Below, piece after piece: positions 16,986 through 24,392 of a stretch of 40,482 bases of DNA. The stretch spans positions 1 through 40,482 of the forward strand of contig DASYVL010000070.1 in the NCBI GenBank assembly GCA_035937135.1, written 5' to 3'. The translations under genes and the position numbers were made by a program. The notes below the pieces were generated by a model. The model was not told the origin of the DNA, made no database searches, and saw only the letters and a list, made by a program, of their open reading frames with translations. Numbering within the stretch: the first letter of the stretch is position 1; each line of letters begins with the position of its first letter. The stretch is from Terriglobales bacterium. Lineage in GTDB: Bacteria; Acidobacteriota; Terriglobia; Terriglobales; Acidobacteriaceae.

Positions 16986-18596
16986 ATGCCCACGAGCCTC
17001 GAGCGCCTGAAGCTCCTCATCAACTCCAACACGCCCATCGTGCTCATGGAGACGGTGGAGGAGGGCCGCTGTCTGGCCCTGGTGCGCCAGGCCTGCGCCG
17101 AGCTGAACCTGACGCTCTTCGAGTGGAGCATCGCTGACGGGCTACAGCGCAGCGGCATCCCGTAGGCGCCCGAGGCCGCCGACCCGCGCCAGCACGAGTG
17201 GAGTGCTGGCCCTCAGGCCAGTTCCGCCGACCCCAACCTGCTCGACCCCAACCTCAATCCCCGGGACTCCGCCGGCCCCATCCTGAACACGCAGCAGCCG
17301 GCCAACGTCCTGGCGCACATCGAGACTCTGACCATCGAGGCCGTCTTCCTGCTCAAGGACTTTCACCGCCACTTGGACGACGTGATCGTGGTGCGGCGAG
17401 TGCGGGAAGTCTCGCAGCACTTCGCGCGCAGCCGGCGGGCGCTGGTGCTGACCGGGCCGTCGCTGCCCATGCCGCCCGAACTGGAGAAAGAGGTCGAGTA
17501 CGTGGACCTGCCGCTGCCCGACGCGGCGCGCCTGCGGCAGATCGTGGACGAGACCTACGCGCGCCTGGCCAAGACCCGCAAACTGAAGCGCACCCTCGAC
17601 GCAGCCGGCCTCGAAGCCGCCGCCAACAACCTGCGCGGGCTCACCGAGGACGAGGCCGAGCGCGCCATCTCCCAGGCCATTGTTGCCCGCTACGCGCTCT
17701 GCTCCGAGGTGGTCACCGATGTCCTCGAAGCCAAGAAGGAGACGCTGCGCCGCTCCGGCATGCTGGAGTTCATCGAAGTCTCGGACTCCATGGGCTCCAT
17801 CGGCGGCCTGGAGAACCTGAAGAAGTGGCTCCGGCAGCGCCAGGGCGCCTGGGAGGACTCGGCTCGCGCCTACGGGCTCGACCCGCCCCGCGGGGTCATC
17901 CTTATGGGCGTGCAGGGCTGCGGCAAGAGCCTGTGCGCGCGTGCCATCGCCGGCGAGTGGAAGCTGCCGCTGGTGAAGTTCGATACCGCCGCCGTCTACG
18001 ACAAGTACATCGGCGAGACCGAGAAGCGCATCCGCAAAATCTTCCGCGTGGCCGAACAACTGGCGCCCGCCGTGCTCTGGATCGACGAACTGGAGAAGGT
18101 TTTCGCCGGCAGCGGCCCCGATTCGGCCTCGTCGGACGCCGGCGTCTCCGCCCGCCTGCTGGGCTCCTTCCTGGGCTGGATGCAGGACCGCAAGGTGCCG
18201 ATGTTCGTCGCCGCCACCTCCAACAACGTCAACGTGCTGCCTCCGGAGCTGATCCGCAAAGGCCGCTTCGACGAGATTTTCTTCGTGGACCTGCCCAACC
18301 CCGCCGAGCGCCGCATCATCTTCGAACTGCACCTCAAGCGCCGCAAGCTGGACCCTAAGGCATTCGACCTGGAAAAGCTGGTGGCGGCGAGCGAAGGCTA
18401 TTCGGGCGCGGAGATCGAGGCGGCGGTGCAGTCCGCCATGTACGCCAGCTTCTCCGACAAGAAGCCGGTGACCACGGCGATGGTGCTGGAGGCGCTGGGC
18501 GCGACCGTGCCCCTTTCCACTACCCGCGCCGAGGACATCGAGCGGCTGCGCGAGTGGGCGCGCGAGCGGGCGGTGCCCGCTTCGGCGGCAAAGTGA
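16986..18596 (+). CDS. Ycf46-like AAA+ ATPase, interrupted by an in-frame amber codon
   Basis: The frame reads from ATG 16986 through a Ycf46-type N-terminal region (LKLLINSNTPIVLMETVEE, then LTLFEWSIADG) to TAG at 17163-17165 (codon 60), then continues open to 18596 with FLLKDFHRHLDD, a AAA+ domain with Walker A GVQGCGKS (308-315), Walker B AVLWIDELE (362-370) and second-region GRFDEIFFVDLP. No frameshift is seen: both sides are in one frame. The only restart starts downstream are poor; the first is TTG at codon 130, inside the conserved HRHLDD. CAG to TAG by one base would explain it. I judge this a nonsense-mutated or sequencing-affected gene rather than two genes. Confidence 0.85.
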
Positions 18597-19181: not shown

Positions 19182-20222
19182 ATGAAGAAGCACATCCCCA
19201 TCGCTCCCCACATCGAGACCCTGTTCGGCACCCACGACGAAAACCTGCACACGCTTGAGGATGGCCTGCACGTCTCCATCGACCTGAAGTCCGACCGGTT
19301 GGAGATCCAGGGCGCGGCGGAGAGCGTGGCGCGCGCCGAACAGGTGTTCGCCGATTACCAGCACCTGCAGCATGCCGGCTTCGGCTTCAACAACGGCGAT
19401 CTGGGCTCCATGCTGCGGCTGGTAGCGGCCGACGCGAGCGTTACGTTGCGCAGTCTGGCCGAATCGGGGCGGCAGCGGTCGTTGGGCAAGCGCCCGGTGC
19501 AGCCCAAGAGCCCCAACCAGCGCCGGTATCTCGAAGCCATCGAGAATAGCGACATGGTGTTCGGCATCGGGCCGGGCGGCACGGGGAAGACCTACCTGGC
19601 GGTGGCCATGGCCATCTCGGCGCTACTGTCCAAGAAGGTGCATCGCATCATCCTGGCGCGCCCGGCCGTAGAAGCGGGCGAGCGCCTGGGCTTTTTGCCC
19701 GGCACCCTGCAGGAGAAGATCGATCCCTACCTGCGCCCACTCTACGACGCCCTCTACGACCTGCTGGACGCGGACAAGGTGGAGCGCTTCCTGGAGAAGA
19801 ACATCATCGAGATCGCTCCCATCGCCTTCATGCGCGGGCGCACGCTCAACGATTCCTTCGTCATTCTCGACGAGGCGCAGAACACCACCTCGGAGCAGAT
19901 GAAGATGTTCGTCACCCGCCTGGGATTCAACTCCAAGGCGGTCATCACCGGAGACGTCACCCAGATCGACCTGCCGGGGGCGCGGCGCAGCGGCTTACTG
20001 GAGGCCATGGACATCCTGGGCAAGGTCGAGGGACTGGCCTTCGTCTATTTCACCGAAGGCGACGTGGTGCGCCACCATCTGGTGCAGCGCATCATCCGCG
20101 CCTACGACGAGCGCAAGCAGAGCGACCTGGCGGCGGAAGGTAAGGCGCCCGACACCAGGTACGGAGCGTCCCCGGCCGGTGGAAAGACGGGCAAGGAACT
20201 CCGCAATCGCCCCGTGGATTGA
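19182..20222 (+). CDS. phoH: PhoH-family ATPase (YbeZ-like)
   Basis: PhoH/YbeZ is an RNA-associated ATPase that works with YbeY in RNA maturation. The 346-residue protein has a degenerate N-terminal KH-like part (about 20-75), Walker A GPGGTGKT (130-137), Walker B (FVILDEAQN) and the GDVTQIDLP motif near 260. Length fits YbeZ. It is followed 34 bases later by ybeY, a corC-like gene and era, the usual cluster. The ribosome site is weak (AGAG). Confidence 0.95.
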
Positions 20223-20256
20223 AGGCGAGTAGAATAATGATGGGAGGGCTGGATTT

Positions 20257-20730
20257 ATGGCCCTCCCATTCGTTTTGGAAGACCTTGTGGTGATTCTTGA
20301 GAAAAAATTGCGGGGCGTCAGCGCAGCGGCGCTGAGCCGGTTCGCGGGACGGGCGCAGCGCGCCGCCGGCCTGCGCGGCCGGGTGAGCATCCTGGTGACG
20401 GGGAGCGCCGAGCTGCGCCGCCTGAATCGCCGCTACCGCCGCGCCGACCAGCCCACGGACGTGCTCTCTTTTCCGACCCGTGGCAACGGGATGGCCGGCG
20501 ACATCGCCATCTCGGCGGAGGTTGCCGCCGGGAACGCGCGGCGCTTCGGGCACTCCGCAGCGGCGGAGGTGAAGATCCTGATCCTGCATGGCCTGTTGCA
20601 CCTGGCCGGACTCGACCATGAGCGCGACCGCGGCCAGATGTCGCGTCGGGAAGAGAAGCTGCGGCGCAGGCTGGGCCTGCCGGCGTCACTGATTCAGCGG
20701 AGCTCCCCGGCAGCGGGGAAAGAATCATGA
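20257..20730 (+). CDS. ybeY: Endoribonuclease YbeY
   Basis: YbeY is a zinc-dependent RNase needed for 16S rRNA 3'-end maturation and ribosome quality control. The 157-residue protein has the zinc motif HGLLHLAGLDH (H111, H115, H121), TDVLSFP (67-73) and a normal length. The N-terminal 30 residues are variable, as usual. A GGGAGGG ribosome site lies about 9 bases before the ATG. Its stop overlaps the start of the CorC-like gene by 4 bases (ATGA), so the two are coupled. Confidence 0.95.
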   Translation: MALPFVLEDLVVILEKKLRGVSAAALSRFAGRAQRAAGLRGRVSILVTGSAELRRLNRRYRRADQPTDVLSFPTRGNGMAGDIAISAEVAAGNARRFGHSAAAEVKILILHGLLHLAGLDHERDRGQMSRREEKLRRRLGLPASLIQRSSPAAGKES

Positions 20731-21995
20731 CTTGGGCGATCATCCTCGTGGGATCGGGGCTCATCGTGCTACTCGCGCTGGTCTCCTATGTGGACCGCGT
20801 GTACACGGAGATGGGAAAGTTCCTCTCCCGCGAATTCCAGGAGAACATCGAGGCCTTCGAGAAGCTGGTTGAGCCCCGCGTGGGCGCCAGCCGCTCGCGC
20901 ATCCAGCTCTCCATGGCAGTGCTGGCCCAGCTTTTCACCGCGGCCATCGCGCTGCTCTTCGGTTTCGTCGTCTTCCGCGACGGCCTGTGGGACTTTCCCG
21001 AGATTGCGCAGGCGAGCGTCGCCATCATCTTCGTGATCATCCTCTTCAACCGCTTGTTGCCCTTCGTCCTGTTCACGCGCACCCGGGGCGACTGGCTGGC
21101 CCCGCTGGCGCCGCTGCTGCGCTTGCTGGTGTACCTATCCTTGCCCGTGACCCTGGTGCTGAGTTTCTGTCTTTCGGTGGCGGCGCTGGCCGAAGAGCAT
21201 CCCCCGGAGGAGCCCCAGCCCGGCGATGCCGTAGATGCTCTCATCGAGGCGGGCCAGGACGAAGGCATCCTGCAGGAGGGTGATAAGCAGCTCATCCAGT
21301 CGGTGGTCGAGTTCGGCGAGAAGACGGTGCACGAGGTGATGACGCCGCGACCGGAGATCGTCGCCGTCCCCGCCGATACTAGCGTCGAGCAGTTCACCGA
21401 GCTGCTGCGCGCCAAGCCCTACTCCCGCATGCCCGTGTACGAAGGTTCTATCGACCATGTGAAGGGCATCGTCTTCGCTCACGACGTGCTGCAGGTGGCG
21501 GACACCGAGGCCCGCGCCCAGACCGTGGGGAAGATGATGAAGCCCGTGCACTTCGTCCCCGAGAGCCAGCGGGTGCGCACGCTCATGCGAGAACTCCAGA
21601 AGGAGAACCAGCACATGGCCGTCGTGGTGGATGAGTACGGGAACGTCGCCGGCGTGGTCACCCTCGAAGACCTGATGGAGGAGATTGTGGGCGAGATTCG
21701 CGACGAGCACGAAGCCAAGGCTGACATCGTGCGCGAGTCCGAAAGCTCCTACGTCGTCCCCGGGCGCATGGACGTGGACCGCCTCGCGGAACTCTTTGGC
21801 GTTCGTCCCGAGGGCAGGGACGCCGCGACCGTGGCCGGGCTGGTGAGCGAGCTGCTGGGACGCATCCCCGCCCCGGGCGAGGTTGTGGAAGACGACGGCT
21901 TGCGCTTCGAGGTCCTGGAAGCCAGTTCCCGGCGGGTGGAACGCCTGCGCATCAGCCGGCGGAGCTCCGCGCCTCCCAAGGCCGCGAGCGCCTGA
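20727..21995 (+). CDS. CorC/HlyC-type transporter-associated CBS protein
   Basis: The 422-residue protein has four or so hydrophobic segments (about 3-25, 62-84, 94-112 and 128-150), two CBS domains (about 197-255 with VHEVMTPRPEIVAVPADT, and 265-325 with VVVDEYGNVAGVVTLEDLMEE) and a CorC_HlyC domain (about 335-405). Members bind nucleotides through CBS and act in Mg2+/Co2+ homeostasis. The membrane part is diverged from DUF21, so the exact transport role is open. It sits between ybeY and era in the conserved order. Confidence 0.9.
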   Translation: MTWAIILVGSGLIVLLALVSYVDRVYTEMGKFLSREFQENIEAFEKLVEPRVGASRSRIQLSMAVLAQLFTAAIALLFGFVVFRDGLWDFPEIAQASVAIIFVIILFNRLLPFVLFTRTRGDWLAPLAPLLRLLVYLSLPVTLVLSFCLSVAALAEEHPPEEPQPGDAVDALIEAGQDEGILQEGDKQLIQSVVEFGEKTVHEVMTPRPEIVAVPADTSVEQFTELLRAKPYSRMPVYEGSIDHVKGIVFAHDVLQVADTEARAQTVGKMMKPVHFVPESQRVRTLMRELQKENQHMAVVVDEYGNVAGVVTLEDLMEEIVGEIRDEHEAKADIVRESESSYVVPGRMDVDRLAELFGVRPEGRDAATVAGLVSELLGRIPAPGEVVEDDGLRFEVLEASSRRVERLRISRRSSAPPKAASA

Positions 21996-22110
21996 TCAGC
22001 GATGTTGAGGCGTTTAGCGGGCGTCTGAGCCCGCTGCCGAAATCCTGACCCTGAGCGCAGCGAAGGAGAAGGAGCTCGGGGCCGCAACTTGAAAAGGAGC
22101 GGAGAAAGCT

Positions 22111-22130
22111 AGACACTCTGTTGAGTGTCT
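22111..22130 (+). promoter_or_regulatory. Perfect hairpin overlapping the era start codon
   Basis: AGACACTC (22111-22118) pairs with GAGTGTCT (22123-22130) around TGTT. The GTG start of era (22125-22127) lies inside the 3' arm, so the folded RNA would hide it. AGGAG (22095-22099) is upstream. Confidence 0.6.
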
Positions 22131-23033
22131 TTCCGCTCCGGATTCGTCTCCATCATCGGCCGGCCCAACGCCGGCAAATCCACCCTACTGAACGCGCTGG
22201 TGGGCCAGAAGGTCGCCATCGTCACCCACAAACCTCAGACCACCCGCAACCGCATCCAGGGGATTGTGAATGTTCCGGCGCGTAAGGGCCGGCCCGCGGG
22301 GCAGGTGGTCTTCCTGGACACGCCCGGCGTGCATAAGCCGCAGTCGTCCCTCAACAAGAAAATGATGCGCGAGGTCCACGACGCTCTCGAAGGCCGTGAC
22401 CTGCTGCTGCTCATCACCGACGTCACCGAAAGGTTCGGCGGCGGCGATGAATTCGTCCTCGACCTGGTCCAGCGGGCCGGCGGCCCCGCCTTCCTGCTGC
22501 TCAACAAGATCGACCGCGTGGACAAGGGCCGGCTGCTCCCGCTCATCGAGGGATACAGCCGGAAGCATGAGTTTCAGGAGATCATCCCCATCTCGGCGCT
22601 CAAGCGCGACGGGCTCGACCTGCTGGTCGACAAGGTCATCCACGCCCTGCCCGAGGGTCCGCGCTATTTCCCCAAAGACCAGATCACCGACCAGCCCGAG
22701 CGCTTTCTGGCGGCGGAGATCATCCGCGAAAAGATCCTCATCGCCACCGGGCAGGAGGTGCCGTATGCCAGCACGGTGCAGGTGGAGAGCTGGGAAGAGT
22801 CGCCGAAGTTGACCAAGATCGCCGCCGTTCTCTACTGCGAGCGCGACGGGCAGAAGAAGATCCTCATCGGCAAGGGCGGCGAGATGATGAAGAGGATCGG
22901 CACCTCAGCCCGGCTCGAGATCGAGAAGCTGCTCGGCACCAAGGTCTTCCTGGAAATGTTCGTCAAGGTCGAGCCCAACTGGCGCGAGTCGCGCGAGTTT
23001 GTGGAGGGTCTGGACTGGCGCCACCAGACCTAG
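22125..23033 (+). CDS. era: GTPase Era
   Basis: Era is a GTPase that checks 16S rRNA 3'-end assembly through its KH domain. The 302-residue protein has G1 GRPNAGKS (12-19), G2 region (KPQTTRNRIQGI), G3 DTPGVHKP, G4 LNKID and the KH domain with KKILIGKGGEMMKRIGTSAR. Length is normal. An in-frame TGA sits right before the GTG at 22125, and no ATG precedes it in frame, so the start is GTG. A perfect hairpin covers this start. It ends the phoH-ybeY-corC-era run. Confidence 0.95.
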   Translation: MSFRSGFVSIIGRPNAGKSTLLNALVGQKVAIVTHKPQTTRNRIQGIVNVPARKGRPAGQVVFLDTPGVHKPQSSLNKKMMREVHDALEGRDLLLLITDVTERFGGGDEFVLDLVQRAGGPAFLLLNKIDRVDKGRLLPLIEGYSRKHEFQEIIPISALKRDGLDLLVDKVIHALPEGPRYFPKDQITDQPERFLAAEIIREKILIATGQEVPYASTVQVESWEESPKLTKIAAVLYCERDGQKKILIGKGGEMMKRIGTSARLEIEKLLGTKVFLEMFVKVEPNWRESREFVEGLDWRHQT

Positions 23034-23044
23034 CCGGCAGCCGG

Positions 23045-24392
<1,348 letters not shown>

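Follow-up and report, generated by a model that had tools for sequence, protein, structure and literature searches.

Introduction

Among the sources of in-frame stop codons distinguished by Belinky et al. (2021; PMC7918605) are annotation artefacts, sequencing errors, pseudogenes and tolerated stops. The TAG at codon 60 of the AAA+ ATPase frame described here belongs to this known set. It resembles the in-frame nonsense codons treated in that paper in being a single stop in a conserved frame with no more degradation, whereas an example given there involves a stop common to several related genomes and the present one is found in one assembly. The arrangement of the encoded protein, with an AAA domain following a conserved N-terminal region, is like that described for the Ycf46/Slr0374-type AAA+ ATPases (PMC7496141); the name Ycf46 is carried over from the label used in an initial annotation of this DNA and is not an orthology assignment to cyanobacterial Ycf46. 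The 476-residue part of the protein beyond the stop is matched across its residues 75 to 475 by the profile phrog_8638 (E 3e-130), for which PHROGs gives the function as unknown. The ATPase of Rhizobium phage vB_RleS_L338C is 37.6% identical over 82% of the same part but, unlike the one described here, is phage-borne. Recoding of UAG by pyrrolysine, amber suppressor tRNAs or allo-tRNAs likewise involves a UAG within an open frame, but at this locus the UAG is not conserved, PylS is below its cut-off, and no tRNA with a CTA anticodon was found among 40. The bacterial code reassignments known at the time of one survey all concerned UGA (PMC8629427). A literature search found no paper on this ATPase locus.

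An AAA+ ATPase Frame Interrupted at Codon 60

The window, meaning the whole 40,482-nt stretch of DNA that was analyzed, is contig 70 of a metagenome-assembled genome of an uncultured acidobacterium (2,225,851 bases). On its plus strand, positions 16986 to 18596 hold an AAA+ ATPase frame of 536 codons that is open apart from the TAG at codon 60 (17163–17165), after which 476 sense codons lead to a terminal TGA (18594–18596). The 59 codons before the TAG (16986–17162) begin with an ATG preceded by AAGGA and form a conserved block. Because the sequence scores as coding in one frame both upstream and downstream of the TAG, and because the 59 upstream residues have a match in all 56 homologous loci examined (L082–L137), the interrupted frame is beyond what chance would give. 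Judged by its sequence, the 59-residue segment is the conserved start of the same ATPase and not a separate small gene. Downstream, Pfam identifies an AAA ATPase domain (PF00004; residues 304–435, 17895–18290; E 2.9e-28) and an AAA lid (PF17862; residues 460–494, 18363–18467; E 5e-8), both intact and above the Pfam cut-offs, which places the protein among the AAA+ ATPases, a protein-remodelling type of ATPase. The frame and its domains thus bear out the initial annotation, which had described an amber codon 60 within a conserved AAA+ frame that continues for 476 codons with its motifs intact.

Apart from the TAG, no further lesion was found in the 536-codon frame, which implies that a null allele would have to be young, or that the TAG is an error, or that the gene still works. 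The best single reading, which we give about an even chance of being correct, is that this lineage or strain carries a recent nonsense null allele of the AAA+ ATPase gene, which is single-copy and patchy in its distribution. Translation would begin at 16986 and RF1 would terminate it at the UAG after 59 residues; the product would be a fragment of the N-terminal region, the ATPase part would not be made in useful amounts, and the gene would have been inactivated, or nearly so, by a recent nonsense mutation. The TAG would then truly be present in the organism's DNA, and the 59-residue fragment would be functionless.

Homologous Loci in Related Genomes

We found 59 homologous loci in the collection of genome contigs (genome_contigs) and compared 56 of them over the whole frame; the other three are the distant L138 and L140 and a locus with a 46-base N-run near its contig start (L139). 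The 56 loci are 62–71% identical to the window in their best segment and derive mostly from MAGs titled Terriglobia, Acidobacteria, Acidobacteriales or Acidobacteriaceae, the genus itself being represented in the collection by this genome alone. The initial annotation had proposed comparing close relatives at codon 60; among these more distant ones, 52 of the 56 loci consist of one open frame, four are broken by a frameshift or an N-run, and none shares the TAG, which is seen in this assembly alone. An early stop at a position where 52 of 56 orthologues are open, none with a TAG, is the pattern of a nonsense pseudogene. The column aligned with codon 60 in the 52 uninterrupted relatives contains alanine (20), valine (11), threonine (7), serine (5), proline (3), histidine (2), and aspartate, isoleucine, leucine and glycine (one each). 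Glutamine occurs there in none of the 52, although the alignment is loose at this point. The suggested single change from CAG to TAG therefore finds no support among the relatives.

Three of the four broken copies (L105, L110 and L133) are split by frameshifts without any N, and the fourth (L135) is split at an N-run. Relative to its closest relative, L103, L105 (1431–1740) lacks 53 bases of the region encoding a linker, which shifts the remainder into another frame; the first frame is closed at codon 63 by a TGA, which a TTG of the downstream frame overlaps. Since 53 is not a multiple of three and PhoH is broken on the same contig, the L105 break is probably a deletion or a misassembly. The other copies break at about codons 126, 147 and 420. 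A break common to the relatives was rejected as an explanation, since the positions differ among broken copies and the L105 break arises from its 53-base deletion with respect to L103.

Position of the Stop in the Protein

The TAG lies at the start of the linker (residues 58–97, 17157–17276), which is gapped and variable in length among the relatives; the second part of the N-terminal region, conserved among the relatives, lies 3′ of it (residues 98–257, 17277–17756). When the frame was modelled with AlphaFold2, the TAG being read as glutamine (mean pLDDT 67.5, pTM 0.41), most of the two N-terminal parts flanking the linker had pLDDT values of about 76–89, and residues 58–97 had values below 50. 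In this model 16986–17162 encodes helices and strands belonging to the N-terminal region. Searched against the PDB with Foldseek, the model gave p97/VCP-type matches of about 570–630 columns. A degenerate AAA-like domain at the N-terminus may be present, but it is only a lead, since the TM-scores are 0.25–0.39 among the 50 matches listed.

A stop at the edge of an unstructured linker could separate two pieces of a working protein, the second piece being made from a non-standard start codon. The L105 copy, which is also broken in the linker and has a TTG overlapping its TGA, would fit such an arrangement. We regard this as scarcely credible here. The first in-frame ATG, GTG or TTG past the TAG is the TTG of codon 130 (17373–17375), within the conserved HRHLDD segment just as the initial annotation stated; it lacks a good ribosome-binding site. 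The CTG, ATC and ACG codons in the intervening 69 codons have at most four of six matches to AGGAGG, which is not a good ribosome-binding site either. The L105 break is itself probably a deletion or misassembly, and the other broken copies break elsewhere. Re-initiation after the TAG was rejected for want of a suitable start, in agreement with the earlier judgement that clean re-initiation is unlikely.

Reading of TAG in This Genome

TAG behaves as an ordinary stop in this genome, and nothing found points to an altered genetic code. RF1 is present, scoring 528.5 bits where the cut-off is 423.25, and codon use identified 191 genes in 234 kb, of which TGA terminates 81, TAG 68 and TAA 42. Of the 51 relatives in which the stop of the orthologue can be seen, 23 also end it with TAG. 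The prfB gene carries CTTTGAC (identified by eye), which we take to be the usual frameshift site of that gene. A CTA anticodon was present in none of the 40 tRNA genes found, a set that is incomplete in that tRNA-Phe and tRNA-Ile are missing from it, so the search for an amber suppressor tRNA proposed by the initial annotation was negative within this set. PylS scored 21.4 bits against a family cut-off of 178, and pyrrolysine was rejected on this basis. Genome-wide reassignment of TAG was rejected, given the presence of RF1, the use of TAG to end 68 of 191 genes and the infrequency of internal TAGs in 519 kb.

Open frames for SelA (contig C159) and SelB (contig C72) score above their cut-offs. 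The sole tRNA-Sec candidate outside the typed tRNA genes is a sequence on the minus strand of contig C145 (C145:342–402; L187:342–402) that scores 32.5 bits against a cut-off of 47, lacks the variable and T arms, and has a UCA anticodon (by eye); it is either an assembly deletion or a degenerate gene. A second sequence, on contig C11, passes the tRNA-Sec cut-off with 49.4 bits but is tRNA-Ser(TGA) according to ARAGORN. Selenocysteine at the UAG was rejected, given the UCA anticodon of the extra candidate, the position of the TAG in a variable linker and the absence of cysteine from the aligned column in 52 relatives. Separately, contig C36 (337–412; L188:337–412) contains a tRNA-Leu(CAA)-like 3′ part with no matching 5′ acceptor strand, as seen by eye.

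The initial annotation had also suggested looking for other genes with an internal TAG. We scanned 519,073 bases for coding potential, amounting to 23% of the genome with the window among them, and detected 43 in-frame stops flanked both 5′ and 3′ by coding-like sequence: 16 TAA, 14 TGA and 13 TAG. In 39 cases a start codon follows no more than 23 codons later, which is the ordinary arrangement where one gene gives way to the next. The remaining four are two that resemble gene ends (before AroA and after prfB; gene names here were assigned by eye), the codon 60 TAG, which of all 43 is the farthest from any next start (69 codons), and a TAG on contig 153. The last interrupts an orphan ORF of 128 codons on the minus strand between prfB and metK (C153:447–830; L214, L211), with coding-like sequence beyond the stop. 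Homologues of this ORF were limited to its own genome among 61 genomes and, among 398, to three weak partial matches besides its own, and it matched nothing in Pfam or PHROGs. Having no convincing homologue, it may represent another broken gene or may not be a gene at all. Looser settings add a small number of junctions distant from a start; these include the TAGs at L199:4742, L196:7732 and L209:8217, whose downstream sequence scores 0.06–0.23. Under strict settings the 519 kb thus hold one further candidate for a gene with an internal TAG.

These results bear on the proposal that the UAG is a tolerated or regulated readthrough site, at which a suppressor or near-cognate tRNA, acting where the linker is flexible, would allow a little full-length ATPase to be made. 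Most residues should be tolerated in the linker, the frame is otherwise intact, and Belinky et al. argue that numerous bacterial genes with an in-frame stop are not pseudogenes (PMC7918605). Allo-tRNAs with unusual anticodons are described from Acidobacteria (PMC7609411), and the orphan ORF supplies one other internal TAG in the same genome. Set against this, no relative among 56 has the TAG, neither a CTA anticodon nor PylS was found in the searches above, RF1 is present, and RNA folding 3′ of the TAG is unremarkable (z −0.25). SelA and SelB are present, yet the only extra tRNA-Sec candidate appears to read another codon. Readthrough is accordingly improbable, and its specific form, in which an unseen suppressor or allo-tRNA holds the ATPase at a low level and the stop acts as an expression dial, is very improbable. 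Functional readthrough and a protein made in two pieces are, taken together, unlikely. The case would matter only if the TAG and a full-length protein were confirmed; it would then be an instance of readthrough in an ordinary acidobacterial ATPase gene.

Background of Broken Genes in Related Assemblies

Adjoining the ATPase gene on the plus strand are open genes for PhoH, YbeY, a CorC-like and an Era-like protein (19182–23033). A PhoH match is present in the same locus in 38 of the 56 relatives, many loci being cut by contig ends. Among these core neighbours in the relatives' loci, two of 116 copies are broken without an N: the PhoH of L105 and the CorC of L134 (QIAJ01000061.1; L134:11166), which has an in-frame TAG at residue 122. 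The count of 116 leaves aside incomplete copies, the PhoH of L117 (broken at an N-run) and the gene at 23045 (three intact, 12 incomplete), and it treats the PhoH of L118 as intact because its end is natural. For the ATPase itself, three of 55 copies are broken without an N, with two N-gapped copies left out; at such small numbers there is no clear difference between 3/55 and 2/116. The relatives' MAGs have a background of isolated breaks, and the codon 60 TAG therefore needs no special explanation. More generally, a single in-frame stop in a MAG gene calls for caution, being near a background seen even in core neighbours.

This background gives weight to a consensus or assembly error in the MAG, with the real gene uninterrupted, a reading that comes close behind a null allele and that we consider quite possible, if somewhat short of even. 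The assembly is a draft in 192 contigs, the rest of the frame is intact with normal-looking constraint, and the lesion background in MAGs spans both ATPase copies and core neighbours, one of the latter being a TAG. With two of 116 neighbours broken in other MAGs, such lesions can equally be assembly background, which counts against a null allele. On the other side, the scan surveyed substitution-type stops, and since it returned only one other strict-setting candidate in 519 kb, substitution errors that create stops cannot be frequent; moreover, the whole window contains no N or ambiguous base. Of the three explanations put forward in the initial annotation, a null allele and an assembly error both fit the evidence, whereas readthrough gained no support where it could be tested.

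Distribution and Constraint of the ATPase Gene

A recent nonsense null allele is favored because recent pseudogenes are common among bacteria and because the gene is patchy in its distribution. Whole-genome searches detected a long homologue in 11 of 60 relatives, with no stop within any match, and 80 of 398 sampled family genomes, its own included, encode the ATPase at E 1e-60 or better. The family survey listed 82 places, the window's own among them, and at each of these the matched part is free of stops; the query begins after codon 60. This patchiness across the family suggests that the gene is probably dispensable. It is also single-copy, in that no intact second copy was found in this assembly: the sole other match there is an AAA domain that is 30% identical, and a separate search gave, besides the window itself, one 33-base match at 88% identity.

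Constraint was assessed by a leave-one-out comparison restricted to columns with at most one exception among the relatives. Of 182 conserved columns the window's copy deviates at five, which ranks it joint fifth highest among 53 sequences with a range of 0 to 21. The frame shows no trace of prolonged decay, a result compatible with a recent null allele, with an error and with a gene that still works. Further degradation, in the form of extra stops, frameshifts or lost conserved residues, was not found, as would be expected if a pseudogene were recent.

A defence role of the IetA or TRIP13 kind was considered and rejected, the scores being only partial: the NCBIfam model for IetA (NF042959, printed IteA) gave 79.7 bits against a cut-off of 510, and the PADLOC IetA profiles gave partial matches, mainly to the AAA part, with a best value of 1e-26. 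Searched with the ATPase part (17166–18593 of the window), 58 phage records contain relatives with E-values of 1e-20 or lower.
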